64,000 nucleotides of DNA from Rhodobacteraceae bacterium Alg238-R152. GTDB lineage: Bacteria > Pseudomonadota > Alphaproteobacteria > Rhodobacterales > Rhodobacteraceae. Positions 45,660 through 59,767 of this stretch are shown one piece after another. The notes beneath the pieces were generated by a model. The model made no database searches and was not told the DNA's origin. It saw nothing but the letters and a program-made list of their open reading frames with translations. Positions within the stretch are counted from its first letter, which is position 1. Each line of letters begins with the position of its first letter. The translations under genes and the position numbers were made by a program. The stretch covers positions 186,001-250,000 of the forward strand of contig UNRJ01000002.1 of the NCBI GenBank assembly GCA_900537125.1. The letters run 5' to 3'.

Positions 45660-47441
45660 TTATCCGGTCCAGGCATCAGCCCCGGGCAGGCCATTGTAAA
45701 CATGCGCCAATCGGATCAAATCATCCGCTGTGACAGATTCCGTCTGCCAGGCTTTGGAACTCACCCCCAACATGCGCGGCATCAACATCGGCCAAAGCTG
45801 ATCATCCTGTGTGGTGAACTCAGACCAAAACGTGCCCTGCACCCCAATGATGCGCTCTGCAAGGTCTGCATCCGGTACTGGCTCCCAGTTGATCGTGTCC
45901 GTAAGCGAGACAAACGCAGCCCAATTGGCCCCCCAATCATCCTTGTCGCTGGTGTGCGCCATGTCGAGATAGATATGCTGAGCCGGGCTCATAACCACGT
46001 CATACCCGTTGCGGGCTGCTTCCAAACCGGGTCCCTGTCCGGTCCAACTGAACAAGATCGCGCCATTGGCGATGCCACCGTTAGATCCTTTGGCCGCTTC
46101 TTCCCACGCACAGGGCCGCTGACCGTTTTCCACGGTTTTTGCGCCCAGCTTCTGCATCATCCACCCTTGCAGATCGTCGGTGGTCTCCAAGCCTTCGCGC
46201 TTCATCAGATCCCGCGCCAATGGGCTGCCCATCCAGGTGCCTTCCGGCAACTCATCACACCCCAGATGCAAGTGCTGGAACGGGAACAAGGCACCCACCT
46301 CGGCCATGATGGCTTCCAGCACATCCCAAGTCCGCGCAATCGCTGGATTTACAGCGTTGCCTTTGTACCCTTGCACACTGACTTCGGCGCCGTTGTCACT
46401 TGGATCCCGCAATTCAGGGAACACATGTGTCAGTGCAATCGCATGTGCAGGCACTTCGATCTCTGGCATCACTTCGATATTGAGCGCCTTGGCGTGGACG
46501 ATGATTTCCCGTGCCGTGTCCTTGGAGTAGCTGCCGCCGGCCTCCACCGCTCCGGAGAACAGGGCGGGCAAAAGATGCCCTTCGCCACACAGCGCAGTTT
46601 TCTGCCAAAGTTCCGGGAAACACTCTATCTCCAGGCGGAAGGACTCATCATCGGCAAAATGCCAATGGAACCGGTTGAATTTCAATAGCGCCATCAGGTC
46701 GAGCAAATCCAGAATGGTCTGTGGATCGTAATAGTGACGGGCAGTGTCCAAATGCTGCCCCCGCCAGGCAAACCGGGGCGCGTCTTTGATCACGCCACAA
46801 GGCAGTGGCCCATGTTGCAGCAAGGTCAGCAAGGTGATCGCACCGTAAAACTCGCCGCCAAAGCCACCTGCACGCAGGATCACACCATCGGGGGACACCT
46901 CCAGCTCATAGGCGTCTTCCGGCAAATCTGCCTGCTCAACGGTGACCTCAGTATCGCCAACAAAAGACCAACCGCGTCGCCCAGCCAAGGCCGCCACATT
47001 TTCAAAAGCAGGGCAGTCACAGACAAACCCAGAGGTTTCCAAAACACCTTCAGAAGCGGCCCAGCTCTGTGGCTGTGGCACCAACGGCAGACCTTCTACC
47101 GGCCCAAGATCAGGCAACACCTGAGGGCGGCACCCGGAATCGGGGATGGGCAATTCGATGGTCTCTTTGCCACACCGCAGATAGGGCCCCAAGGGCAACC
47201 ACGCACGGTTGGCAGGTTTAAAACCTCCGGCATATTGGATCACCAATTCATAAGCGTCACCCGCCACCAGATTTGGCAAGGCTATCTCCGTATAGCTGCC
47301 CAGTGTTTTCATCACTGTTCCACCGGAAACATCCTCAAATGGCCCCATGCCGGAGAAACAAAAAACCGGGGCGGTCAGGGCACGCTCCGGTGTGAAAACA
47401 CATGTAATGGTATCGCCCGTGATACGGCTGTCGTAGTGCAT
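45660..47441 (-). CDS. Beta-N-acetylhexosaminidase, GH20, intracellular
   Basis: A 593-residue glycoside hydrolase that removes terminal GlcNAc or GalNAc by substrate-assisted catalysis. The catalytic pair is D396-E397 in HLGCDELPEGTW. A GH20b-type N-terminal domain precedes the TIM barrel (RGQHLDTARHYYDPQ marks its start). The start at 47441 (MHYDSRITG) lies one base after the regulator stop. No signal peptide is seen, so it should act on imported oligosaccharides in the cytoplasm. It is co-transcribed with the GntR regulator. Confidence 0.9.
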   Translation of the reverse strand: MHYDSRITGDTITCVFTPERALTAPVFCFSGMGPFEDVSGGTVMKTLGSYTEIALPNLVAGDAYELVIQYAGGFKPANRAWLPLGPYLRCGKETIELPIPDSGCRPQVLPDLGPVEGLPLVPQPQSWAASEGVLETSGFVCDCPAFENVAALAGRRGWSFVGDTEVTVEQADLPEDAYELEVSPDGVILRAGGFGGEFYGAITLLTLLQHGPLPCGVIKDAPRFAWRGQHLDTARHYYDPQTILDLLDLMALLKFNRFHWHFADDESFRLEIECFPELWQKTALCGEGHLLPALFSGAVEAGGSYSKDTAREIIVHAKALNIEVMPEIEVPAHAIALTHVFPELRDPSDNGAEVSVQGYKGNAVNPAIARTWDVLEAIMAEVGALFPFQHLHLGCDELPEGTWMGSPLARDLMKREGLETTDDLQGWMMQKLGAKTVENGQRPCAWEEAAKGSNGGIANGAILFSWTGQGPGLEAARNGYDVVMSPAQHIYLDMAHTSDKDDWGANWAAFVSLTDTINWEPVPDADLAERIIGVQGTFWSEFTTQDDQLWPMLMPRMLGVSSKAWQTESVTADDLIRLAHVYNGLPGADAWTG

Positions 47442-47442
47442 G

Positions 47443-48198
47443 TCAGTCCAATCTGAGTTCGGAAACAAAGTCATAAATATCGGAGCGGTAAAGACCGCGA
47501 GTGAGTTCAATCGGACGCCCCGAGCCGAGATACCCTGTGCGTACAATCTGCAAGACCGCACTGCCCTCAGGCAGTTTCATCAAGTCAGCGTCCATGGGTG
47601 AGAGGTTCAGCGCCGTCACTCTCTGAATTGCGCGTGTCGGGGCGCTGTTGCGCTTACGCAATACGGCATAGAGCGAAGTTTCAATCTGCTCAGGGTCGTG
47701 CAGGATATCACGCGGCAAGGAGGAATATTCCAACGCGATGGGCACCCCGCCGGCACTGCGCAACCGATTGATACGGGCAACTTTCTCATGCGCCGCCAAC
47801 CCTAGCGTCACCATTTCGTCCGGATTTGGCGAGAACAAACCACGAGAGAGTACCTCAGAGGTCGCCACCATACCGCGTGCCTGCATGGTCTCGGTGAATG
47901 ACACCAACGAAGAGAGCGACTGCTCCAACCTTGGCGACGCCTCCGCAACAAAAGAGCCAGCACCGCGCCGCTGTTCAATCAGACCTTCGTCTACAAGCTG
48001 GGCGACTGCTTTACGCACGGTGACACGACTGATGTCTGCTTTGTCCGCCAGATCTCGCTCCGGAGGCAGTTGATCTCCCGGTATCAAACGCCCCGTGCGA
48101 ATCTCAGTTGCGATGTGCCGAGACAACTGCTGATACCGCGGCCCGCGGCCCGCGCGATACCAAGTATCCGGATTAAAGATCGTGTCTGCAAAGGTCAT
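47443..48198 (-). CDS. GntR family regulator, HutC/UTRA subfamily (amino-sugar repressor)
   Basis: A 251-residue DNA-binding regulator. The winged HTH at about residues 22-85 includes QLPPERDLADKADISRVTVR, and a UTRA effector domain fills the C-terminal half (ATSEVLSRGLFSP, then GRPIELTRGLYRSDIYDF). NagR/DasR proteins of this subfamily sense GlcNAc- or GlcN-6-phosphate. The start at 48198 is chosen over 48213 because AGGA is six bases upstream and the TGGT/ACCA element occupies 48213-48232. It is divergent from the ABC importer it probably represses. Confidence 0.88.
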   Translation of the reverse strand: MTFADTIFNPDTWYRAGRGPRYQQLSRHIATEIRTGRLIPGDQLPPERDLADKADISRVTVRKAVAQLVDEGLIEQRRGAGSFVAEASPRLEQSLSSLVSFTETMQARGMVATSEVLSRGLFSPNPDEMVTLGLAAHEKVARINRLRSAGGVPIALEYSSLPRDILHDPEQIETSLYAVLRKRNSAPTRAIQRVTALNLSPMDADLMKLPEGSAVLQIVRTGYLGSGRPIELTRGLYRSDIYDFVSELRLD

Positions 48199-48212
48199 TT
48201 GGTTTCCTGACA

Positions 48213-48232
48213 TGGTCTAAAAAATAGTACCA
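48213..48232. promoter_or_regulatory. TGGTCTA-N5-TAGTACCA element, candidate operator
   Basis: The half-site TGGTCTA matches one half of the palindromic TGGTCTAGACCA site used by NagR/DasR-type GntR proteins; the second half TAGTACCA is inverted after five bases. It ends 15 bases before the regulator start, which would allow autorepression. Confidence 0.4.
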
Positions 48233-48414: not shown

Positions 48415-49347
48415 ATGGCCGACCTATCCGCACAGGCATCACAACCAGCCGCCAACACCCGCAAACGCGCCATGTCCGAAAACCTTTTCGGCTGGCTCCT
48501 AGTGGCTCCGGCGATGATCTTTATTGCTGTGATTGTTGCCTGGCCACTGACCGAAACAATCCGCTTGTCCTTTATGGATGCTGGATTGGGTGGCGAAGAG
48601 TTTATCGGACTGGAAAACTATCAAGATCTGGCGGACAGCCGCAAGTTTCACCAAACCGTCATTCGTACCTTCTATTGGATGTTCTTGTCCGTGGGCATCA
48701 AGCTGATCATGGGTTTGATTGGCGCGACGCTTTTGAATGCCGCCATCCCCGGTCGCGCCTTGTTCCGGGTTTTGGTTATGCCGCCTTGGGTGATTCCGGT
48801 TGCGATTGGCTGTATCGGCTGGTTGTGGCTCTATAATGGTTACTTTGGTGTCCTATCCGGCGTGATGATGAAATTGGGCATCACCGATGGCCCGTTTGAA
48901 TTCCTCGCTTATAAGTCTTCGGCGTTTTACTCCGCCGTTGTAACCGACGTCTGGGTTGGCACGCCGATGGTGACGCTGTTCTTCCTCGCCGCCATGCAAG
49001 GTGTGTCGCGTGATCTATATGAGGCCGCTTGGGTCGATGGCGCGGGCCGCTGGTATCGCTTCCGCCGCATCACCATTCCACAGATTATGCCGGTGATTGT
49101 CTCTATGGCGCTCTTGTCTGCGATTTTCACCTTCAACAGCTTCGAAATCATCTGGATTTTGACCGAAGGCGGACCACGCAGCGCCACAACCACACTGATC
49201 ATCGACACCTACAAGGTTGCCATTGGGAACTACAAATTTGGCGAAGGCGCCGCACGGGCCGTGGTTATCGTTGTCCTGCTGGCTGTGTTCTCGCTGATCT
49301 ACCTGTTCTTCCTGAACAAAATCAACAAACGCTACGGGGCGAAATGA
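48415..49347 (+). CDS. Sugar ABC transporter permease (MalF-type)
   Basis: A 310-residue inner-membrane permease of the carbohydrate uptake CUT1 family. Six membrane segments are visible from residue 22 onward (LFGWLLVAPAMIFIAVIVAW), with the EAA loop EAAWVDGAGRWYRFRRITIP. The ATG at 48415 has AAGGGGG upstream; the TTG three bases earlier is less likely. It is the first gene of a long run through CutC (59767) and should form the channel with the next gene. Confidence 0.9.
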   Translation: MADLSAQASQPAANTRKRAMSENLFGWLLVAPAMIFIAVIVAWPLTETIRLSFMDAGLGGEEFIGLENYQDLADSRKFHQTVIRTFYWMFLSVGIKLIMGLIGATLLNAAIPGRALFRVLVMPPWVIPVAIGCIGWLWLYNGYFGVLSGVMMKLGITDGPFEFLAYKSSAFYSAVVTDVWVGTPMVTLFFLAAMQGVSRDLYEAAWVDGAGRWYRFRRITIPQIMPVIVSMALLSAIFTFNSFEIIWILTEGGPRSATTTLIIDTYKVAIGNYKFGEGAARAVVIVVLLAVFSLIYLFFLNKINKRYGAK

Positions 49348-49348
49348 T

Positions 49349-50191
49349 ATGATGGATCGCTACACAAAACTGCAACTGGTTGGCATCTATGCCGCGCTTG
49401 CTGTCTTCCTGACCTTCATCCTGCTGCCTTTCTTTGAGATGTTCATGGCCTCCTTGCGCCCTCTGGAGCACCTGTTCCGCAGCCCGTATCAGTTCTGGTC
49501 GGATGACTTCAGCCTGCAGGCTTATAAAGACATGTGGGTGACCGTGCCGCTACTAGGCCGGTACATCTTCAACTCGATCTTCATCGCCACGTCAGTGACA
49601 GTCATTACAATGGTTTTTGTGGTACCTGCCGCATACGCCTATGCCCGCCTTGAGTTCCCGTTCAAAAACATCAGCCTCGGTATCTTCCTCGGTGTGAACA
49701 TGTTCACCGGCGCCGTTCTGTTGATCCCGCTCTACCGCGTGCTGCGCACCATGGGCCTTTTGAATACTTACTGGGCGATGATTGTGCCTGGCGTGGCCTT
49801 CCTGATCCCCACCGGTATCTGGTTGCTGCGGTCCTACCTGGAGAAAATTCCTCGCGAACTGGAAGAAGCGGCTTTTGTGGACGGTGCATCCCGGATGTAC
49901 ACCCTGCGCCGCGTGGTTCTGCCACTGGCCGTGCCCGGCCTTATCGTGGTCAGCGTCGCCGTCTTTATCGGCGCCTACGCCCAGCAATTCCTGTTCGCAA
50001 TTACCTTTAACCAGACACGTGAGCTGCAACCGCTGCCTGCCGGTCTCTTTGAATTCATCGGCTACCAGTCGGTGACTTGGAACGAAATGATGGCCGCGGC
50101 TTTGGTAGGTGTCCTACCGGTCATGCTCATCTTCCTGTTCCTACAAAAATACCTCGTCGCCGGCCTCACGGCAGGCGCGGTGAAAGAATAA
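49349..50191 (+). CDS. Sugar ABC transporter permease (MalG-type)
   Basis: A 280-residue inner-membrane permease, partner of the preceding one. It shows the EAA loop EEAAFVDGASRMYTLRRVVL and the C-terminal NEMMAAALVGVLPVMLIFLF helix typical of MalG. One base separates it from the upstream stop. An in-frame second ATG follows at once (MMDR), so the exact start is one of two adjacent codons. Confidence 0.9.
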   Translation: MMDRYTKLQLVGIYAALAVFLTFILLPFFEMFMASLRPLEHLFRSPYQFWSDDFSLQAYKDMWVTVPLLGRYIFNSIFIATSVTVITMVFVVPAAYAYARLEFPFKNISLGIFLGVNMFTGAVLLIPLYRVLRTMGLLNTYWAMIVPGVAFLIPTGIWLLRSYLEKIPRELEEAAFVDGASRMYTLRRVVLPLAVPGLIVVSVAVFIGAYAQQFLFAITFNQTRELQPLPAGLFEFIGYQSVTWNEMMAAALVGVLPVMLIFLFLQKYLVAGLTAGAVKE

Positions 50192-50214: not shown

Positions 50215-51420
50215 ATGAAATTTGTGAAACTCACATTGGGCGCAGCCCTGCTGTCCGGGGCCGCAAGCGGCGCACTGGCAGCTGACACAGAGCTGCATTT
50301 CATCATGTGTGGTGGCGAAGTCCGCGAAGCTGATCAGGCCGTTGTTGATCAGTTCGAGAAAGACCACGAAGGTGTGTCCGTGAACCTCGAAGCTGTGCCA
50401 TGGGGCACATGCCAGGACAAATCTTTGACACTGGCCGCTGCGGGTGACCCACCCTCCATCGCTTATATGGGCTCACGCACCCTGCGTCAGCTGGCCAACA
50501 ACGACCTGATCGTTGCGGCAAACATCGACCCAGAAGCGCCATACCAGCCAGGTGTTCTAAACACCGTGACCATCGAGGGCACGCAGTGGGGCTACCCACA
50601 CGCATTCTCCACCAAAGCGCTCTATATCAACTGTGGAATCGTTGAAGAATCCGGTCAGGAATGTGCCGCTCCAGCAACTTGGGACGACATGTACGCAATG
50701 GCCAAAGGCGTTGTGGACAACACCGAAGTGGCTGGCGTTGGCCTGTCGGGCAAAGACTTCGACAACACCATGCACCAGTTCCTGAACTACCTGTACTCCA
50801 ACGGTGGTTCTGTGATCGACGGCGCAACCGGCAAAAACATGCTGGACAGCAAAGAGACCCGCGAAACTCTGGAATTCTACGGCAAGCTCGTAGACGTTGC
50901 TCAGGACGGCCCAACCGCATGGGAACGCAGCCAGCTGCGTGATCTGTTCAACGACGGCAAGATCGCCATGTATGTCACCGGTCCTTGGGGTCACGGTCAG
51001 CACAACGAAGACATCAACCAGATCGTTGCGCCTATCCCTGCTGGTCCTTCCGGTGAAAGCGGCTCCATCCTGATCACCGACTCCATCGTGGTGTTCAAAG
51101 GTTCCGGTCACGAAGATCTGGCCCATGATCTGGCACAGCGCATCACTTCCGGTGACAGCCAGTACGACCTGGACAGCAGCTGGGGTCTGACACCAATCCT
51201 CGACTACACCAAGCTGGGCAAAGAAGATCCGTACTACAACGACGGCATCTGGCCGACCTTCACTGCATCGATCGCTACCGGTGGCCCAGAGCCGCTCGTA
51301 GAAGACTTCAAATCGCTGCAGTCTGTGTTCACCAACATGGTTCAAGGCATCATCCTGCAGGATGACACTGTCGACAACCTGGTGACCATCGCAGCTGAAG
51401 AGCTCGACGACGCCCTCTAA
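50215..51420 (+). CDS. Sugar ABC transporter substrate-binding protein (amino-sugar oligosaccharide)
   Basis: A 401-residue periplasmic binding protein. The signal peptide (residues 1-22, MKFVKLTLGA to ALAADTE) precedes a CUT1-type fold (QFEKDHEGVSVNLEAVPWGT, later IAMYVTGPWGHGQ). AGGGAG stands before the ATG at 50215; the frame open to 50077 lies inside the permease gene. Ligand is inferred from the surrounding hexosaminidase, NagA and AgaS genes as GlcNAc- or GalNAc-containing sugars. A large hairpin follows. Confidence 0.9.
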   Translation: MKFVKLTLGAALLSGAASGALAADTELHFIMCGGEVREADQAVVDQFEKDHEGVSVNLEAVPWGTCQDKSLTLAAAGDPPSIAYMGSRTLRQLANNDLIVAANIDPEAPYQPGVLNTVTIEGTQWGYPHAFSTKALYINCGIVEESGQECAAPATWDDMYAMAKGVVDNTEVAGVGLSGKDFDNTMHQFLNYLYSNGGSVIDGATGKNMLDSKETRETLEFYGKLVDVAQDGPTAWERSQLRDLFNDGKIAMYVTGPWGHGQHNEDINQIVAPIPAGPSGESGSILITDSIVVFKGSGHEDLAHDLAQRITSGDSQYDLDSSWGLTPILDYTKLGKEDPYYNDGIWPTFTASIATGGPEPLVEDFKSLQSVFTNMVQGIILQDDTVDNLVTIAAEELDDAL

Positions 51421-51509: not shown

Positions 51510-52607
51510 ATGGCAACGCTCAACCTGAATGCAATCAACAAGTCCTTCGGTTCGGCTAAGGTGTTGCATGACATCAGCCTCGCAATCGAGGACAAAGAAT
51601 TTGTGGTCTTCGTAGGCCCCTCCGGCTGCGGCAAATCCACTTTGCTGCGCATCATTGCCGGCCTCGAAGAATCCACCTCCGGCTCCATCCAGATCGGCGA
51701 CGAAGACGTCAGCAACGCCGCTCCTGTTGATCGCGGCATCTCGATGGTGTTCCAGTCTTACGCGCTTTACCCACACCTAAGCGTCTATGAAAACATCGCT
51801 TTCCCACTGCGCGTTCAAAAGATGCCGAAAGAGGAACTCGAAGAACGCGTTCAACGCGCAGCTGGTATCCTGCAACTCACGGAAAAACTCGACCTGAAAC
51901 CAGGCCAATTGTCCGGTGGTCAGCGTCAGCGTGTGGCCATTGGCCGTTCGATTGTGCGCAACCCAAAGGTCTTCCTGTTTGACGAACCGCTCTCCAACCT
52001 CGACGCCGCCCTTCGCGGGGACATGCGCGTGGAGTTGAGCCAATTGCACAGCCAACTCGACGCCACCATGGTCTACGTGACCCACGATCAGGTCGAAGCC
52101 ATGACCATGGCAGACCGCATTGTGGTGTTGAACGGTGGCAAAGTGGAACAATTTGGCTCCCCAATGGAGCTATACCACCACCCCGCCACCAAATTTGTGG
52201 CTGGCTTCATTGGTCAACCCAACATGAACTTTGTGCCCGCCACCGTACTGGAAACCACTGGCGCACTGACGGTGGAGCTCGACGGTGGACATAAGATGTC
52301 TCTGCCGGTCGACACCGCTGGCGTGCGCAAGGGCGACACTGTCGAGGTGGGTATCCGTCCCGAGCACGTAACTCTTGGCGACGACGGCTTGGACATCACC
52401 GTGAATGTGTTGGAACGTCTAGGCGGCATTTCGATCACCTATGGCACCATCGGCAACGGCACTCGCTTCTGTGCGTCTCTGTCAGGCGATGCCCCAATTC
52501 AGCAAGGCAAGAACATGCGCCTCACAGTTGCGCCAGAAGATTGCCACGTGTTCCAATCCAACGGCAATGTATTGCGCCGTAAATCTGCCCCAGCTTTGGT
52601 GGCTTAA
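51510..52607 (+). CDS. Sugar ABC transporter ATP-binding protein (UgpC/MalK-type)
   Basis: A 365-residue cytoplasmic ATPase. Walker A GPSGCGKST, the signature LSGGQRQR, Walker B FLFDEPLSNLD and the H-loop YVTHDQVEAM appear in order, followed by a TOBE-type regulatory domain. The MATLNLNAINKSF start at 51510 is normal for the family; the frame open to 51459 falls in the hairpin region. It completes the importer. Confidence 0.92.
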   Translation: MATLNLNAINKSFGSAKVLHDISLAIEDKEFVVFVGPSGCGKSTLLRIIAGLEESTSGSIQIGDEDVSNAAPVDRGISMVFQSYALYPHLSVYENIAFPLRVQKMPKEELEERVQRAAGILQLTEKLDLKPGQLSGGQRQRVAIGRSIVRNPKVFLFDEPLSNLDAALRGDMRVELSQLHSQLDATMVYVTHDQVEAMTMADRIVVLNGGKVEQFGSPMELYHHPATKFVAGFIGQPNMNFVPATVLETTGALTVELDGGHKMSLPVDTAGVRKGDTVEVGIRPEHVTLGDDGLDITVNVLERLGGISITYGTIGNGTRFCASLSGDAPIQQGKNMRLTVAPEDCHVFQSNGNVLRRKSAPALVA

Positions 52608-52616
52608 GGATCTCCC

Positions 52617-53753
52617 ATGCGCGTTGTCACAGCAGGCATAGGCCTTCGGGCCGGGCATGTGCTTTCCATCCTGAAGGAAGCCATGCCAGAGGTGGAGTTT
52701 GTCGGGTTCTATGACCCACAGCCCACCCATCTGGAAATGATTGGTATCGAGACTCCACAATTCGACGATATAGAGACTATGTTGGCCCAAACAGCGCCTG
52801 ATCTCTTCTTTGTCGGCTCGCCCAATAGCTTCCATTTGGAACACATCAAAATTGGCCTCGCCGCTGGCGTGCGCATTTTTACGGAAAAACCTGTGGTCAC
52901 CACCAAAGAGGAGACCATGGAACTGGCTGCGTTGTTGGCCGAGCACGGCACCGACAGCGTCATGGTGGGCCTGGTGCTGCGCTATTCACAGCATATGGTC
53001 GATCTGCGCAGGGTGCTGGATCAGCTTGGCCCCATCACCTCGATGGAAGCCAGCGAGCACATCGCTCCTTATCATGGCGCATTTTTCATGCGTGACTGGC
53101 GCCGCATGGTGCATTGGTCCGGTGGCTTCATGCTCGAAAAATGCTGTCACGACATCGACATTTACAACATGGTGACTAGCTCGCGTCCCTCCCAGGTCGC
53201 AAGCTTTGGCGGGCGCAAATCATTTGTTCCGGCATTTGCGCCCGCCTCAAATACCGAAAACGAAATCATGCACCGCAAGAAAAGCGTCTGGCAGAGCATT
53301 GATGACCCGTTCCATTCAGACGGGGATATCATCGATTACCAAACCGCCATTCTGCAGTACGAAAGCGGCGCCTCGCTGTCGTTTCACACCAACCTGAACG
53401 TACCGGATGAGCACCGCAGGTTCTGTGTGATGGGCGCAATGGGCATGGCCGAAGGCGATTTTGTGCGCGGCTATCTAAAAGCAACTGCCCGCGATGGATC
53501 GGTGATTGCAGATCACGACTACACCCAAATGGACAGCGCCCGGGCCTCCGCCCATTACGGCGCGGACCACATGATGGTGGACGACATCGTTGCCTTCTTG
53601 AAAGGCGAAACCGAGACCCTTCCGGTTGGCGTGGTGGACGCGCTGGAGGCAGGTCTTGTGGCAATGGCGCTGGATGAAGCGCGCATCGACGGAAAAATGA
53701 TCAACATGGCCCCTGTTTGGGCCGAATTCGACAAGTTTGGATTGCGAGAATGA
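52617..53753 (+). CDS. Gfo/Idh/MocA family NAD(P)-dependent enzyme
   Basis: A 378-residue cytoplasmic protein. The N-terminal Rossmann domain starts RVVTAGIGLRAGHVLSILK and contains the EKP motif (TEKPV). The C-terminal catalytic half has GGFMLEKCCHDIDIYNMV, including the Lys/His/Asp positions typical of this family. Members are sugar dehydrogenases, or in the GH109 branch NAD-dependent alpha-N-acetylgalactosaminidases. No signal is present, so it is cytoplasmic. It lies nine bases after the ATPase gene and overlaps the next gene by ATGA, tying it to amino-sugar breakdown. Confidence 0.85.
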   Translation: MRVVTAGIGLRAGHVLSILKEAMPEVEFVGFYDPQPTHLEMIGIETPQFDDIETMLAQTAPDLFFVGSPNSFHLEHIKIGLAAGVRIFTEKPVVTTKEETMELAALLAEHGTDSVMVGLVLRYSQHMVDLRRVLDQLGPITSMEASEHIAPYHGAFFMRDWRRMVHWSGGFMLEKCCHDIDIYNMVTSSRPSQVASFGGRKSFVPAFAPASNTENEIMHRKKSVWQSIDDPFHSDGDIIDYQTAILQYESGASLSFHTNLNVPDEHRRFCVMGAMGMAEGDFVRGYLKATARDGSVIADHDYTQMDSARASAHYGADHMMVDDIVAFLKGETETLPVGVVDALEAGLVAMALDEARIDGKMINMAPVWAEFDKFGLRE

Positions 53754-54748
53754 CAATGAACAGCACCGTACACGGCGCATTGATGGCCAAAGAGAGCGCA
53801 GAGGCAATTGACGTCTTTGCAAAAACCGCAACACAGTCCGTATCCCTGCCCAATCTGGACGCTGTAAAAGCAATCTACACCATTGCGCGTGGTTCCTCTG
53901 ACGCAGCGGCCAACATCCTGTCTTACGAATTCATGCGTGAACTTGGTGTACCTGTGACCTCTCTGCCACCGTCTGTGTTCTCGATTGGCAAAGGTGTGTC
54001 CATGGACAATTCCGCCGCGCTGGTGGTGAGCCAGTCCGGCGCCTCCGAAGATCTGGTGCGCAGCGCCAAAGGCGCCGCCTCGCGTGGCGCCAAAGTTCTG
54101 GCCCTGACCAACATCCCGGACAGCCCGGTGGAAGCCGCTGCTGATGCCACCATCGCAATTGGTGCTGGTCCGGAAAATGCCGTCCCAGCCACCAAAACTG
54201 TGGTGGGCTCTGTGGCCGCCGGAATGGCACTTTTGGCTGGAATAGAGTCCAACTATGATGTCAAGCCTTCTGCAGACGCCATCGCCGCCGCACCGTCCGC
54301 GCTGCCCGATGCCGCCGCCCTGCGTGCCGCCTTCCTGCGCGCGCGCCACTTCTATGTGATTGGCCGTGACACAGGCTTTGGTGCCGCCCACGAAGTTGCG
54401 TTGAAACTCAAAGAATGCTGCGCCCTGCACGCCGAAGCTTATTCCGCTTCCGAAGTGCTGCACGGTCCGCTGCAACTGGCGACCAACCCGATGATGGTGC
54501 TGATCCTCGACACGGGCCAAGCCGACATTCAGGACAGCCTTGATCAAGCCGAAGCGCGTTTCACCGCTGTTGGCTGTGACGTGCATCGCATTCGCGTGAC
54601 CGACCTGATCGACACCGACATCAAGCCAGCCGCCGCAGCCGCTTACCTTCTGGCGCTGATCTACCCGGTGATCCTTGAAACCGCGCTCGCAATGGGCTTG
54701 AACCCGGACACTCCGGAAACTCTGGCGAAAGTGACCCAAACCACATGA
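53750..54748 (+). CDS. Double SIS-domain protein, NagB-II/GlmS-like sugar-phosphate deaminase-isomerase
   Basis: A 332-residue cytoplasmic protein with two SIS domains and no glutaminase domain. Features are IYTIARGSSDAAAN, VVSQSGASED and KLKECCALHAEAYSASEVLH followed by GPLQL. This pattern fits glucosamine-6-phosphate deaminases of the NagB-II type that make fructose-6-phosphate and ammonia. An overlapping ATG at 53750 (ATGA) is taken as start; one at 53756 is possible. No classical NagB is in the window, so this is the best candidate for that step. Confidence 0.82.
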   Translation: MTMNSTVHGALMAKESAEAIDVFAKTATQSVSLPNLDAVKAIYTIARGSSDAAANILSYEFMRELGVPVTSLPPSVFSIGKGVSMDNSAALVVSQSGASEDLVRSAKGAASRGAKVLALTNIPDSPVEAAADATIAIGAGPENAVPATKTVVGSVAAGMALLAGIESNYDVKPSADAIAAAPSALPDAAALRAAFLRARHFYVIGRDTGFGAAHEVALKLKECCALHAEAYSASEVLHGPLQLATNPMMVLILDTGQADIQDSLDQAEARFTAVGCDVHRIRVTDLIDTDIKPAAAAAYLLALIYPVILETALAMGLNPDTPETLAKVTQTT

Positions 54749-55791
54749 GCACAACCTTGGACACCTGGGCCACGTGGCGCGAAATTCACCAGCAGCCCGC
54801 CGTTTGGCGGGCCTGGGGCGACGCGCTCGACGTAGCAGGCCTGCGCAGCTGGATTGCGGCGCAGAACGCAGACGAAGTTTGGTTCTGTGGCGCAGGCACA
54901 AGCGCGTATATCGGCGACATCATCGCCGCAGCTGTGCCGGGCACCCGCTCTGTGCCTTCCACTGATCTGGTCGCAAACCCACGGGCTTTCCTGAATGGCA
55001 ACCGCCCACTGGTGGTCAGCTTTGGCCGCTCTGGAAACTCCACCGAAAGCCTCGGCACGCTCGACGCGCTGGACGCTTTGGCCCCTGACGCACCGCGGTT
55101 GCACATCACTTGCAACCCAGATGGCGCATTGGCCACCCGTTCCTCGCTAGGTCCACTCAAAGTCATCAACCTGCCAGACGTCACCCATGACGAAGGCTTT
55201 GCCATGACCAGCAGCTTCTCCACGATGCTACTGACCGCCTTGGCGCTGTTTGACGAGCCTTGTGACGTACCGGCCCGCTTCAATGCACTGGCAGATCAGC
55301 TCGAAAATCTGTTGCCACAGTTTGGCACTCCGCGCCCGGATCGCGCGGTTTACGTGGGCTCCGGCCCGCTGGCTTTTGCCGCCCGTGAAGCCGCACTCAA
55401 GGTTATGGAGCTCACCGCCGGGCAAACACCTGCCCTTTGGGACAGCTCGCTTGGCTTCCGCCACGGACCAAAATCTTTTGTGCGTGACACAACGTCCATC
55501 ACCGTGTTCAGCAGCCCACATGCCCCAACAAACGCCTATGACGCTGATCTGGTAGCCGAACTGCGCGCACAGTTCCCAGACGCCCGCATCACCAACATCG
55601 GTCCCAATGGCGACATTGCCATCGATATGCCGTTTGGCACCGCATGGGCCGCGCCACTGTGTATTGCCGCATCCCAAATTGACGGTGTGAAATGGGCGGC
55701 GGAACTGGATCTGAACGTCGACAATCCTTTCACCGGGCAAGGCACGCTGTCGCGCGTGGTCTCCGGTGTGACGCTGCACGGAGTGGGCTGA
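54745..55791 (+). CDS. agaS: AgaS-like SIS-domain galactosamine-6-phosphate deaminase/isomerase
   Basis: A 348-residue cytoplasmic protein that resembles E. coli AgaS along its length. The clear segments are WFCGAGTSAYIGDIIAAAV, VVSFGRSGNSTESLGTLD and the C-terminal AREAALKVMELTAGQ with FRHGPKSFV. AgaS converts galactosamine-6-phosphate to tagatose-6-phosphate and ammonia. It overlaps the preceding SIS gene by ATGA, giving a pair of deaminases for GlcN- and GalN-phosphates. Confidence 0.88.
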   Translation: MSTTLDTWATWREIHQQPAVWRAWGDALDVAGLRSWIAAQNADEVWFCGAGTSAYIGDIIAAAVPGTRSVPSTDLVANPRAFLNGNRPLVVSFGRSGNSTESLGTLDALDALAPDAPRLHITCNPDGALATRSSLGPLKVINLPDVTHDEGFAMTSSFSTMLLTALALFDEPCDVPARFNALADQLENLLPQFGTPRPDRAVYVGSGPLAFAAREAALKVMELTAGQTPALWDSSLGFRHGPKSFVRDTTSITVFSSPHAPTNAYDADLVAELRAQFPDARITNIGPNGDIAIDMPFGTAWAAPLCIAASQIDGVKWAAELDLNVDNPFTGQGTLSRVVSGVTLHGVG

Positions 55792-56693
55792 TGACCGTTG
55801 CGGGGATCGATCTTGGCGGCACCAAATGTGAAGTGCGCCTGTTTGATGCAGACTGGAACGAGGTGGCCCGCCATCGCGAACCCACGCCCAAATCTTATGA
55901 AGGTCTGGTGCAAACCGTGGCCAAACAGGTGGCCTGGGCCGAAGCTGAATCCGGGGAAAAACTCCCGGTTGGCATCGGCGCGGCTGGTCTGATCAATCCC
56001 CAAACCGGTCTGGCGCTCACCGCCAATCTGCCAGCCACCGACAAGCCATTTCCAGCGGACATCAATACAGCTGCTGGTCGCCCTATCACTTATGTGAATG
56101 ACTGCCGGGCTTTGGCTTTGTCCGAGGCGGTGTTTGGCGCGGGTAAAGGTCAGAACATTGTGATGTCGCTGATCCTCGGCACCGGTATCGGGGGCGGCAT
56201 TGTGGTGAATCAGTCTCTGCTACAAGGCCCAACCCTGACCGGTGGCGAATTTGGCCACACCTCCGCACCCGCCCATATAGTGTCCCGTCACAACCTGCCC
56301 ATCCGTCGCTGTGGCTGTGGCCGTTTGGGCTGCATTGAGACCTATGTCGCAGGCCCCGGTCTGGCTGCGTTGGCGGAAACCCTCACAGGTCAGAAAGTCA
56401 ATCCACCAGAAATCGCCGCTAGGCGTCATGATGACATGGCCGATGTTTGGGATGTCTGGTGCACTTTGGCCGCTGAAATGCTCCACAGCCTGACCCTGAC
56501 CGCCGATCCGGATGTGATTGTGCTTGGTGGAGGTTTGAGTCAGATCAACGGCGTGATCCAGGATCTATCCGTCGCCGCACAAAAAGCCCAAATTGGGGAT
56601 TTCTCCACCGCCCGCCTGACCTTGGCGCAGGGCGGTGACAGCAGCGGTGCCCGTGGGGCCGCATATGCCGCTTGGCAGGAGGCCAACACATGA
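55791..56693 (+). CDS. ROK-family sugar kinase (probably N-acetylhexosamine kinase)
   Basis: A 300-residue cytoplasmic kinase. The ATP-binding motif DLGGTK is at residues 7-12, GTGIGGGIV is present, and the ROK zinc-binding cluster RRCGCGRLGCIETYV is at about 172-186. The start at 55791 overlaps the agaS stop by one base. It would phosphorylate the imported or released GlcNAc or GalNAc at position 6, since an ABC importer delivers unphosphorylated sugar. Confidence 0.88.
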   Translation: MTVAGIDLGGTKCEVRLFDADWNEVARHREPTPKSYEGLVQTVAKQVAWAEAESGEKLPVGIGAAGLINPQTGLALTANLPATDKPFPADINTAAGRPITYVNDCRALALSEAVFGAGKGQNIVMSLILGTGIGGGIVVNQSLLQGPTLTGGEFGHTSAPAHIVSRHNLPIRRCGCGRLGCIETYVAGPGLAALAETLTGQKVNPPEIAARRHDDMADVWDVWCTLAAEMLHSLTLTADPDVIVLGGGLSQINGVIQDLSVAAQKAQIGDFSTARLTLAQGGDSSGARGAAYAAWQEANT

Positions 56694-57919
56694 CACACGC
56701 GCTGCGTTCCATCATTCAGCAAAACCGCGCCGGCACGCCGGTTGCGATCCCCTCTGTGTGCTCTGCCCATCCCGATGTCCTACGCGCCTCCTTAGCGTTG
56801 GCAGAACGTCTGGACCGACAAATTGTTGTTGAGTCGACCTCCAACCAAGTCAATCAGGACGGCGGCTACACTGGCATCACACCGGAAGGCTTCATCCGCT
56901 TTGTCTATGACATTGCCGACCGCGCCAATGTGGCTCGCGAACGCATCATCTTTGGCGGCGACCATCTTGGTCCGCAAGCTTGGCGCGCAATGTCCGCTGA
57001 GGCCGCCATGGACAAGGCCCGCGTGCTGGTGCGCGACTACGTAAACGCCGGTTTTGGCAAGATTCATCTCGATTGTTCCGAGGGCTGTGCAGGCGAAGCC
57101 GCGCAACTGACCGACGATCAAACTGCTGAACGCTCTGCTGATCTTGCTCGCGTTTGCGCCGAAGAAAGCGACGACCTCTTATTTGTGGTTGGAACCGAAG
57201 TGCCGCCCCCCGGTGGCGCACGGGCAGATGAAGATGGAGACATCCCCCCAACCAACGCGCAAGATGCAGCTGCAACGCTGAAGGCCCATATCGACACCTT
57301 TGGCGATCTGGCCTCATCCATTGGCGGTCTTGTGGTACAGCCCGGCGTCGAGTTTGGCCCCACAGATGTGCATCATTTGCCTTTTAACCGCGATCCCGGC
57401 TTTCTTGCTGCCATCGCAGACCACCCAACTGTATGCTTGGAAGCACACTCCACCGATTATCAGCGCCCATATACCTTTGTGCGCCTTGCGGAACTTGGCT
57501 TTGCCTTTCAGAAGGTGGGCCCAGCGCTGACCTTTGCTTACCGGCAAGCGGTCTACGCGCTGGATGCGCTGCGCCAACCGTCTGGCGTGCTGCGCGCCAC
57601 GATGGAAGAGTTGATGTTGAGTGATCCGAAGTATTGGCAAGGGCACTACCACGGGGACACAAATAGCCTGCGTCGGCAGCGCCATTTTGGTCTCGCAGAT
57701 CGGGTGCGCTATTATTGGCCACAGCCCAAGGCGCAATCCGCCGTACAAAAACTCCTGTCGGATACACCTGACACTATCAGCGAAGCGGCTGTGCGCGCCG
57801 CCTTTGGCACCACCACGCTGGAACGCGCGGAACAACTTTCCGGTTCCCACGCACAACGCCTGATAGATGCGCAAATCGAACTGGCGCTGGAACCCTATTT
57901 CTTTGAGGTATCAAAATGA
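56690..57919 (+). CDS. GatZ/KbaZ-family protein, probably tagatose-6-phosphate 4-epimerase
   Basis: A 409-residue TIM-barrel protein of the family named as non-catalytic subunit of tagatose-1,6-bisphosphate aldolase. Typical segments are QVNQDGGYTGITPEGF, IIFGGDHLGPQAW and GFGKIHLDCSEGC. No catalytic GatY/KbaY partner is in the window. In Agrobacterium a member of this family is reported as a D-tagatose-6-phosphate 4-epimerase, which would turn the AgaS product into fructose-6-phosphate. It overlaps the kinase and nagA genes by ATGA. Confidence 0.85.
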   Translation: MTHALRSIIQQNRAGTPVAIPSVCSAHPDVLRASLALAERLDRQIVVESTSNQVNQDGGYTGITPEGFIRFVYDIADRANVARERIIFGGDHLGPQAWRAMSAEAAMDKARVLVRDYVNAGFGKIHLDCSEGCAGEAAQLTDDQTAERSADLARVCAEESDDLLFVVGTEVPPPGGARADEDGDIPPTNAQDAAATLKAHIDTFGDLASSIGGLVVQPGVEFGPTDVHHLPFNRDPGFLAAIADHPTVCLEAHSTDYQRPYTFVRLAELGFAFQKVGPALTFAYRQAVYALDALRQPSGVLRATMEELMLSDPKYWQGHYHGDTNSLRRQRHFGLADRVRYYWPQPKAQSAVQKLLSDTPDTISEAAVRAAFGTTTLERAEQLSGSHAQRLIDAQIELALEPYFFEVSK

Positions 57920-59055
57920 CCGATCGTTGGATCGCCCCGGACCGTCTCTTTGATGGTCACAGCATTCAATCCGGGGTCGCAGTACGCCTAAAAGACAACC
58001 AAGTTGTGGAAACCGGCCCCGCCCCTGCGGATGCCACAAAGCTGCCAGGACTGCTGATCCCAGGCTATGTGGATCTACAGGTGAACGGCGGCGGCGGCGT
58101 GTTCCTAAACGAAACCCCGACCCGCGACGGCATTGCCACGATTGCTTCCGCCCACCGTCGGTTTGGCACAGTTGCTGTTCTGCCTACCGTGATCACTGAC
58201 CGTGCAGAAGTTTTGGAAAATGCCGCCAATGCCGCCATTGCGGCCCAAGGCCTCCACGGAATTCTTGGCCTGCACATCGAAGGCCCGCATATTTCGCGCG
58301 AGCGTCGTGGCACCCATGACGCCACCTATGTGCGCCCGTTTGACGATCGCACCATGGCGGTTGTGACCCATCTTCGCGATATCAACATCCCGGTGATGAT
58401 CACACTTGCCCCCGAAGTCACCCCACTCAAAACCATTTCTAAACTGGCTGAAATCGGCGCTGTTGTCTCCATTGGTCACTCCAACGCCTCTGCCGCGCAA
58501 GTGAACGAAGCCATTGAGGCAGGTGCATCCTGTGCCACCCATCTGTTCAACGCCATGTCCCCCATGACAAGCCGTGAACCCGGCGTTGTTGGCGCGGTGA
58601 TCAACTCCACGCTCTATTCCGGTATCATCTGTGACGGCCACCACGTTGCAGACAGCATGGTCGGCCTCGCGGTGCGTGCCCGCCCACAACCCGACCGGAT
58701 GATTTTGGTATCAGATTCCATGGCCACTGTGGGGGGGCCAGATCACTTCGAGCTCTATGGCCATCAAGTGGTGCTCAAGAATGGGCGTCTGATCAACAAA
58801 GAAGGCAGCCTTGCTGGCGCGCATGTGACTCAAGCCGAAGGTGTGCAACGCCTGATCCATCATGCAGGTGTATGTGAGGAAACCGCACTACGCATGGCGA
58901 TTACCACCCCTGCGCAGTGCATCGGGGCACCGAAATTTGGCGGACTTCTGAATCGCCGGGTCGATGACCTACTTGTGCTGGATCAGGACCACGCCGTAGA
59001 GGCTACGCTTTCTGAAGCGCTCACAGCGTTGAAAGCCGAAAATGCCGCGCAATAG
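57916..59055 (+). CDS. nagA: N-acetylglucosamine-6-phosphate deacetylase NagA
   Basis: A 379-residue metal-dependent amidohydrolase that removes acetate from GlcNAc-6-phosphate and perhaps GalNAc-6-phosphate. The conserved pattern is complete: DLQVNGGGGV near 53-62, metal ligand E122 in HIEGPH, H188 in GHSNA, H209 in THLFNAM, DGHH and D267 in SDSMA. It is coupled by ATGA to the GatZ-family gene and overlaps cutC by 14 bases. Confidence 0.93.
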   Translation: MTDRWIAPDRLFDGHSIQSGVAVRLKDNQVVETGPAPADATKLPGLLIPGYVDLQVNGGGGVFLNETPTRDGIATIASAHRRFGTVAVLPTVITDRAEVLENAANAAIAAQGLHGILGLHIEGPHISRERRGTHDATYVRPFDDRTMAVVTHLRDINIPVMITLAPEVTPLKTISKLAEIGAVVSIGHSNASAAQVNEAIEAGASCATHLFNAMSPMTSREPGVVGAVINSTLYSGIICDGHHVADSMVGLAVRARPQPDRMILVSDSMATVGGPDHFELYGHQVVLKNGRLINKEGSLAGAHVTQAEGVQRLIHHAGVCEETALRMAITTPAQCIGAPKFGGLLNRRVDDLLVLDQDHAVEATLSEALTALKAENAAQ

Positions 59056-59767
59056 TCTCACATTTGAAGTCTGCATCGACACTGCAGCAGGGTTTGCCGC
59101 CTGTGACGGGATTGTGGACCGCATCGAGCTGTGCAGCGCTCTAGATGTTGGTGGCTTAACACCCTGTCCGGGTTTGATCGCCGCCGCACAAGACAGTGAT
59201 ATCCCAAGCCACGTAATGATCCGGCCCCGCGCTGGTGATTTTTGCTACGACAAGACCGACTTGAAAGTGATACGCGCTTCGATTGAGGCCGTGAGAAACG
59301 CCGGTCTCACCGGTGTGGTGATTGGCGCTGCGCAAAATGACCAACTGGACAGTCCTGCTTTAAGAGATCTGATCGCTGCCGCCGAGGGTCTGGAAGTCAC
59401 ATTGCATCGTGTGATCGATCTTATGCCAGACCCGCTTGCCGCTATGGAGCAGGCCATAGACCTAGGTTTCGACCGCATCCTGACCTCCGGCGGCGCGCCG
59501 CGTGCGGTTGACGGTCAAGCGACCCTGCGCGCCATGCAAACGGCTGCAATGGGGCGGATCGAAATCATGGTGGGCAGCGGCGTATCTGTCTCCAATCTGG
59601 CCGAACTGGCGCAAAACACTGGCATTACGTCTTTCCACGCCTCCTGCAGCAGCTCCATTCCTGTCGCAGAACATCTCCACCACTTTGGCTTTGCCAAAAC
59701 GCAGAAAGTCACCAGCCGCGATACGGTTGTTGAATTCCGCAAAACATTGGACACCCTCGCCGTGTGA
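59042..59767 (+). CDS. cutC: CutC family protein
   Basis: A 241-residue TIM-barrel protein with all the family blocks: FEVCIDTAAGF, RIELCSALDVGGLTP, VMIRPRAGDFCY, TLHRVIDLMPDP and ILTSGGAPRA. CutC was named for copper tolerance in E. coli, but that role is disputed. Here it overlaps nagA by 14 bases as the last gene of the amino-sugar operon, so a role in sugar or amino-sugar metabolism is more natural. It ends one base before the convergent GH1 gene. Confidence 0.88.
   Translation: MPRNSLTFEVCIDTAAGFAACDGIVDRIELCSALDVGGLTPCPGLIAAAQDSDIPSHVMIRPRAGDFCYDKTDLKVIRASIEAVRNAGLTGVVIGAAQNDQLDSPALRDLIAAAEGLEVTLHRVIDLMPDPLAAMEQAIDLGFDRILTSGGAPRAVDGQATLRAMQTAAMGRIEIMVGSGVSVSNLAELAQNTGITSFHASCSSSIPVAEHLHHFGFAKTQKVTSRDTVVEFRKTLDTLAV

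Follow-up and report, generated by a model that had tools for sequence, protein, structure and literature searches.

How would N-acetylgalactosamine (GalNAc) be degraded where an AgaS-like deaminase and a GatZ-family protein share an operon that has no GatY/KbaY aldolase and no tagatose-6-phosphate kinase? The question is raised by positions 52617–59055 of a 64,000-nucleotide stretch (the window) of contig UNRJ01000002.1 from Rhodobacteraceae bacterium Alg238-R152, where genes for a Gfo/Idh protein, two SIS proteins (SIS1 and SIS2), a ROK kinase, GatZ and NagA follow one another in this order on the + strand. The original prediction for this locus had listed NagA, a ROK kinase, a NagB-II-type and an AgaS-type deaminase and GatZ, which proved right at the family level and in their coordinates, and had seen neither aldolase nor tagatose-6-phosphate kinase in the operon, as the gene calls confirmed; it had left unmentioned the Gfo/Idh gene with which the interval begins. 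Its interpretation, an exit through an epimerase, gained support from the genome-wide absence of GatY and of the kinase, from the link between SIS2 and GatZ across the family, and from the finding that genomes whose operon is without GatZ carry one of another lineage. Overall, the operon very probably serves the joint catabolism of N-acetylglucosamine (GlcNAc) and GalNAc, with GatZ epimerising tagatose-6-phosphate to fructose-6-phosphate and no need of an exit by kinase and aldolase.

In the proposed route, a GH20 β-N-acetylhexosaminidase would release amino sugars, which the ABC transporter is predicted to bring in; the ROK kinase would phosphorylate both GlcNAc and GalNAc at C6, and the one NagA would deacetylate both N-acetyl sugar phosphates. 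SIS1 would convert glucosamine-6-phosphate (GlcN-6-P) to fructose-6-phosphate and SIS2 galactosamine-6-phosphate (GalN-6-P) to tagatose-6-phosphate, on which GatZ would act by C4 epimerisation through a metal-dependent retro-aldol/aldol mechanism, the whole branch running from GalNAc through GalNAc-6-phosphate, GalN-6-P and tagatose-6-phosphate to fructose-6-phosphate. Since no phosphofructokinase (PFK; PF00365) was found in the genome, with a positive E. coli control, fructose-6-phosphate would presumably pass through glucose-6-phosphate into the Entner-Doudoroff route.

GatZ and the search for its classical partners

A GatZ-family tagatose-6-phosphate 4-epimerase of Agrobacterium tumefaciens was reportedly described by Wichelecki in 2015. 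The original prediction knew the activity from an Agrobacterium member; the activity stands, and its restriction to that source does not, as it extends to E. coli, where deletion of gatZ abolished tagatose formation from glucose and in vivo evidence for the conversion of fructose-6-phosphate to tagatose-6-phosphate covers both GatZ and KbaZ (PMC11907403, 2025). A metal-dependent retro-aldol/aldol C4 epimerisation was proposed there for the GatZ family, with C20, E44, D87, H88, E171, H257 and K279 (E. coli GatZ numbering) put forward as catalytic, metal or family residues. Each of the seven is invariant in 109/109 aligned rows, the window among them (the alignment counts each E. coli protein twice). 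The window protein belongs to the family (PF08013, 425 bits against a cut-off of 26.7, residues 5–404) and reaches 401 bits with the NCBIfam equivalog TIGR02810, below the cut-off of 569, so that 'aldolase non-catalytic subunit' is not transferable to it as an equivalog name.

That curated family name expresses the classical Aga route, in which GatZ would assist a tagatose-bisphosphate aldolase as its non-catalytic subunit, with the aldolase and a tagatose-6-phosphate kinase encoded elsewhere; published GalNAc descriptions also state it, some with AgaZ as the kinase. The source genome, a Shimia-like Rhodobacteraceae (4.27 Mb, 14 contigs, 99.96% complete), speaks against it. It holds a single GatZ copy and a single class II aldolase (PF01116), IolJ. 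This aldolase belongs to an iolC-iolB-iolJ-iolG cluster, and its score with the GatY/KbaY model (TIGR01858) is 148 bits against a cut-off of 444; no recognisable GatY/KbaY was found in the whole-genome search, which did not extend to LacD-type class I aldolases. Seven PfkB-family proteins are encoded, one of them IolC and one a hydroxymethylpyrimidine phosphate kinase by their own cut-offs, the other five below every cut-off listed. The best scores were 64 bits with the 1-phosphofructokinase/LacC-type model TIGR03168 (cut-off 216) and 130 bits with the TagKinase model (cut-off 420); no recognisable LacC-like tagatose-6-phosphate kinase was found among the genome's PfkB proteins, and no tagatose kinase or sugar dehydrogenase beside GatZ in the operon. 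Neither of the two classical enzymes, on whose absence elsewhere in the genome the original prediction had depended, was thus recovered by sequence search. The class II aldolase, with a PfkB gene nearby (G000:C6), was considered as part of a hidden GatY/tagatose-6-phosphate kinase pair and rejected, its neighbours and models being those of iolC-iolB-iolJ-iolG; in the related Phaeobacter inhibens, an IolJ-like aldolase was assigned from fitness data (PMC9007349).

Co-occurrence of SIS2 and GatZ across the family

A first draw of the family (198 genomes, each of a different genus), with SIS2 scored at ≥51% identity, held SIS2 in 19 genomes and GatZ in 32, and GatZ was present in 19/19 of the SIS2 genomes. 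The larger draw (394 genomes, 393 genera), which by its genome labels includes the first, held SIS2 in 41 and GatZ in 72; GatZ occurred in 41/41 SIS2 genomes and in 31/353 without SIS2 (Fisher 2.5e-36, a value which, like the other Fisher value below, ignores kinship). The added 196 genomes alone gave 22/22 against 18/174. By SIS content, GatZ was found with both SIS proteins in 13/13 genomes, with SIS2 only in 6/6 and with SIS1 only in 0/3 (SIS1 counted at ≥51% identity; 32 further genomes hold 35–44% matches); GatZ is tied to SIS2, not to SIS1. Two of the three SIS1-only genomes had their operon read (L106, L107), and both SIS2 and GatZ were missing there. Among the 80 loci of a named-collection comparison, 64 were operon-type, with SIS2 in 62 (contig ends truncate the remaining two) and a GatY/KbaY match in 0/64. 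An apparent exception, an operon-type GatZ without SIS2 (G269), was dismissed when SIS2 was found beside ROK and GatZ, split over two frames (L122:7018-8095) as a pseudogene or by assembly error; G269 was left among the 31 SIS2-negative, GatZ-positive genomes, where counting it works against the claim. In the loci L053 and L056 (Rubellimicrobium) and the similar L126, SIS2-GatZ-NagA adjoins a PfkB (adenosine-kinase-like) gene, and no ROK kinase or transporter matches were found within these loci.

The absence on which the original prediction had depended extends to relatives. The GatY model was above its cut-off in 0/32 GatZ-bearing genomes and 0/22 further SIS2 genomes (E. coli control above), together 54 tested genomes which take in all 41 SIS2 genomes, and PFK was found in 0/41. 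A subunit of a missing aldolase, fed by a missing kinase, would seem to make little sense in the SIS2 genomes; on these absences, and with the only class II aldolase of the source genome located among inositol genes (one relative, G382, has two aldolases under every cut-off), the classical Aga route is very improbable.

Eleven of the 41 SIS2 genomes have an operon with SIS2 and ROK that lacks GatZ ('lacks' and not 'lost', because tree counts cannot separate gain from loss); NagA follows in 10/11, and in the rearranged G346 it was not seen. GatZ was found elsewhere in 11/11 of these genomes versus 2/30 with an operon copy (Fisher 2.5e-8; G056, with SIS2 and GatZ near the ends of two contigs, was counted with the 30, and by coordinates alone 29 are adjacent and 12 not). 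On the SIS2 tree, the operon-GatZ state changes at least six times on well-supported branches and nine times on the best tree, and in random sets of six independent pairs the trans copy was opposite in 5.5 on average and never in the same direction, a test weaker than the Fisher values (median p = 0.06). The GatZ tree used 80/109 rows, 27 near-duplicate operon/galactitol loci and two E. coli locus copies having been removed manually, and it does not include L130–L152, whose GatZ rows were obtained later. Its 47 operon rows form one clade (SH-like approximate likelihood ratio test, 100) that includes 0/11 of the trans copies, for which at least four separate placements are needed, L101 falling just outside.

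Four trans GatZ genes adjoin PfkB kinases that match the tagatose kinase model best (L099, 372 bits; L103, 419; L117, 284; L119, 291; cut-off 420), and others adjoin an ABC transporter (L113), a BadF-family kinase (L121) or a SIS gene (L093). From these varied placements and neighbours it follows that different GatZ lineages, some of galactitol/tagatose type, are present where the operon GatZ is missing; the common denominator of operon and trans lineages is predicted to be tagatose-6-phosphate. The GatZ of L097 adjoins what appear by eye to be glycogen genes.

Substrates, alternatives and points against

NagA was the one pathway enzyme above an equivalog cut-off (TIGR00221, 239 bits; cut-off 226). 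The ROK kinase best matched N-acetylglucosamine kinase (PRK13310, 203 bits; cut-off 380) and SIS1 the NagB-II model NF046059 (189 bits; cut-off 430), with 8eol, a solved GlcN-6-P deaminase, as its second-best PDB match. SIS2 best matched the agaS_fam model TIGR02815 (237 bits, 4e-70; cut-off 529) and shares 39% identity with E. coli AgaS, the conserved segment GFRHGPKS being common to both in the alignment; its best PDB match is 3c3j, which we take to be the E. coli AgaS structure. AgaS is known from the literature as a GalN-6-P deaminase, and in E. coli genetics AgaS and NagB are not interchangeable while NagA and AgaA are (PMC3668189), which accounts for two deaminases and one deacetylase in the operon. 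In four genomes (G050, G080, G086, G127) a NagB-like gene stands at the far end of the transporter genes, SIS1 is not seen and SIS2 is kept; the NagB of L100, where SIS1 is missing, is above its cut-off, and no such NagB was seen at L108, L110, L127, L128 and L147, where some stretches stop short of that place. This pattern fits SIS1 as a GlcN-6-P deaminase and SIS2 as a different, probably GalN-6-P, deaminase.

The operon might instead serve GlcNAc/chitobiose only, with SIS2 and GatZ acting on another sugar phosphate, such as tagatose-6-phosphate from tagatose or galactitol, or on another amino sugar. The modest identity of SIS2 to AgaS would allow this, as would the functional diversity of SIS proteins, of which NagS, a GlcNAc-6-phosphate dehydratase, is an instance; a NagS-like dehydratase was set aside for SIS2, however, as NagS is described as MurQ-related and restricted to Streptomycetaceae. 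GatZ does adjoin tagatose-kinase-like genes in other clusters, but those clusters, of galactitol/tagatose type, often carry a GatD-like dehydrogenase as well, whereas the window GatZ has NagA, the AgaS-like SIS2, GH20 and a ROK kinase of amino-sugar type around it, and a GlcNAc-only operon is unlikely. Flow in the opposite direction, from fructose-6-phosphate to tagatose-6-phosphate or GalN-6-P for cell-surface sugars, would accord with the reversibility in principle of both reactions and with the direction in which E. coli GatZ was tested (PMC11907403). It is exceedingly improbable, given that the genes share an operon with an importer, a glycosidase, a kinase and a deacetylase and that SIS2 and GatZ are both missing from the two SIS2-less GlcNAc-type operons read (L106, L107).

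Several observations weigh against the epimerase exit and the GalNAc assignment. SIS2, SIS1, ROK and GatZ all score under their NCBIfam cut-offs, and names such as 'true AgaS' are for that reason putative; the original prediction had used this very name, of which the match to the AgaS family stands and 'true' was an overstatement at a sub-cut-off score and 39% identity. The seven GatZ residues are conserved to the same degree in KbaZ and separate no subtypes, so they back the chemistry of the family and not a subtype. PfkB kinases can be promiscuous. C4-epimerase activity in vitro has been attributed to the aldolase FbaA (cited in PMC11907403). Two loci, L036 (Shimia abyssi) and L076 (Pseudovibrio japonicus), have SIS2 and GatZ and no SIS1; SIS2 might serve GlcN-6-P there too, or another deaminase might lie elsewhere. 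The sign test on independent pairs was borderline (median p = 0.06), and the trans GatZ copies L095, L097, L101 and L115 have no recognised sugar-pathway genes adjoining, their use for GalNAc resting on co-occurrence.

Sub-cut-off class II aldolases, finally, occur in 22/32 GatZ-bearing genomes and in 17/22 of the further SIS2 genomes. Thirty-one such loci from SIS2 genomes (a set without the scrap G348:C389, the 20-bit match of G333 and any locus from a SIS2-negative genome) comprised 25 IolJ-like aldolases, four class IIB fructose-bisphosphate aldolases above the TIGR01521 cut-off and two under every cut-off. The IolJ-like proteins are 54–87% identical to the source-genome IolJ, and iolB and iolC adjoin 24 of them, the remaining one (G348) being a contig fragment; an aldolase 1.6 kb from GatZ in G080, tried as a GatY partner, was rejected since IolB- and IolC-like genes adjoin it. 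The two under every NCBIfam cut-off, L166 (3360-4217; 193 bits with the GatY model) and L179 (3860-4840), both belong to G382, the one genome in which this check leaves room for a classical aldolase. By eye, L166 has around it a sugar ABC transporter and a gene resembling glycerol-3-phosphate dehydrogenase, and G382 is one of two SIS2 genomes carrying two GatZ genes. These two apart, the aldolase loci support the reading of GatZ as a probable epimerase.

Operon layout, known routes and significance

Neighbouring open reading frames of the operon overlap at their ends or almost touch, and the CutC gene overlaps the end of nagA (Table 1). The ABC transporter genes, for two permeases, the binding protein and the ATPase, lie upstream on the same strand, and the GntR/UTRA and GH20 genes are divergent.

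Table 1. Genes of the amino-sugar cluster, with positions in the window
Feature	Position	Strand	Basis and conservation
GH20 beta-N-acetylhexosaminidase	45660..47441	-	PF00728, 286 bits; >150 bits in 34/64 operon-type loci
GntR/UTRA regulator, not DeoR-type AgaR	47443..48213	-	PF07702 and PF00392 above cut-off; 54/64 loci
Two ABC transporter permeases	48415..50191	+	PF00528 above cut-off in both; order conserved
ABC solute-binding protein	50215..51420	+	PF01547 above cut-off
ABC transporter ATPase	51510..52607	+	PF00005 above cut-off
Gfo/Idh/MocA-family protein	52617..53753	+	PF01408; predicted fold nearest NAD-dependent glycoside hydrolases
SIS1, probable NagB-II-type glucosamine-6-phosphate deaminase	53756..54748	+	Best NCBIfam model NF046059, sub-cut-off
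SIS2, probable AgaS-family galactosamine-6-phosphate deaminase/isomerase	54745..55791	+	TIGR02815, 4e-70, sub-cut-off
ROK kinase, probable GlcNAc/GalNAc kinase	55791..56693	+	PF00480; best equivalog N-acetylglucosamine kinase, sub-cut-off
GatZ/KbaZ family, proposed tagatose-6-phosphate 4-epimerase	56690..57919	+	PF08013; 7/7 proposed active-site residues
NagA, N-acetylhexosamine-6-phosphate deacetylase	57916..59055	+	TIGR00221 above cut-off
CutC-family protein, operon end	59042..59767	+	PF03932, 220 bits

The closest relatives in the named collection of loci are mostly Shimia (Rhodobacteraceae) with identical gene order, GatZ being 94–96% identical in six loci and 68–78% in other Shimia. A record titled Exiguobacterium profundum (CP059262.1; L055) has the Rhodobacteraceae-type operon, and its label is probably wrong. 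The CutC gene is retained in many relatives and has no apparent role in the pathway. The Gfo/Idh protein was found in 56/64 operon-type loci; Foldseek ranks 1–12 for its predicted model are NAD-dependent glycoside hydrolases or sulfoquinovosidases (8qc2-8qc8, 8zn9) at 17–21% identity, with dehydrogenases of the same fold below them, and it may act inside the cell as an NAD-dependent hexosaminidase. The protein is not bound to the GalNAc branch, since L107 has it without SIS2 and GatZ.

With the aga/kba system of E. coli, the window shares a putative AgaS-family deaminase, a NagA/AgaA deacetylase, a KbaZ homologue and tagatose-6-phosphate as the proposed intermediate. E. coli has the KbaY aldolase, uptake by the phosphotransferase system (PTS), AgaR and PFK, whereas the window side has ABC uptake, a ROK kinase and a GntR regulator, with no KbaY and no PFK; neither a DeoR-type AgaR nor PTS uptake was found in the cluster, a GntR/UTRA regulator and an ABC transporter standing in their place. 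The exit proposed here is fructose-6-phosphate, in contrast to triose phosphates in E. coli.

The last step would be that of the galactitol-tagatose route of A. tumefaciens and Sinorhizobium meliloti, in which a GatZ-family protein, reportedly a tagatose-6-phosphate 4-epimerase according to Wichelecki in 2015 and Kohlmeier in 2019, converts tagatose-6-phosphate to fructose-6-phosphate. There tagatose-6-phosphate comes from galactitol or tagatose through a dehydrogenase and tagatose kinase, whereas here it would come from GalN-6-P through SIS2, and the operon GatZ forms a clade separate from the GatZ found beside tagatose-kinase-like genes. The Rhodobacteraceae GlcNAc operons L106 and L107 have NagA, a sugar kinase and a NagB-II-type deaminase in common with the window, a gene set comparable to the NagA-NagB-II-NagK set of Shewanella type, but only the window's has the SIS2 and GatZ pair. 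In the rhizobial L087 (L080 is similar), as in the window, a SIS protein adjoins GatZ with no GatY in the locus; the kinase is of another family, and there is no NagA in the locus. L087:4127-12401 holds a DeoR (AgaR-like) regulator, a BadF-family kinase (PF01869), ABC transporter, SIS and GatZ genes (families tested for L087 only), and its SIS protein scores 118 with GlmD and 75 with AgaS. Free galactosamine is our guess at the substrate, and L087 and L080 may represent a galactosamine route of their own that likewise leaves through the epimerase. A third arrangement (L104:4920-10258) comprises a PfkB kinase, a SIS protein (best model GlmD), an ABC ATPase and a divergent GatZ, with no GatY in the locus.

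The accessible literature describes one GalNAc pathway, through tagatose-6-phosphate to triose phosphates (PMC5583593); a 2025 review gives the same pathway, LacC included, and restates the earlier suggestion of AgaZ as a tagatose-6-phosphate kinase (PMC12118421), as AgaZ had been named a kinase before (PMC4694137). The accessible part of work on the GlcNAc transporter of Ruegeria pomeroyi makes no mention of GalNAc (PMC10130141). No GalNAc route ending in fructose-6-phosphate was found in a literature search that covered few subscription papers and so is weak proof of novelty. Because the E. coli GatZ/KbaZ epimerase has already been shown in vivo, the novelty would lie in GalNAc use and not in the enzyme: enzyme and step are known, and the placement of a GatZ epimerase as the exit of a GalNAc route would be new.

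If the reading is true, about one tenth of the sampled family genomes (41/394) use a shorter GalNAc route, which spends no ATP on a tagatose-6-phosphate kinase and brings GalNAc and GlcNAc metabolism together. Reconstructions and the review, as far as accessible, still give one GalNAc pathway with kinase and aldolase, and in curated models GatZ is named as a subunit of an aldolase. The exchange of one GatZ lineage for another in nature would provide a genetic argument on GatZ function that is independent of enzyme assays. More broadly, and with chances that we regard as even, GalNAc and galactosamine catabolism would have a second exit, free of kinase and aldolase, through a GatZ-type epimerase in several operon architectures of Alphaproteobacteria, one that suits PFK-less genomes and feeds the Entner-Doudoroff route; by extension, epimerisation would be the general function of GatZ/KbaZ, and the standard annotation would be wrong for most members.

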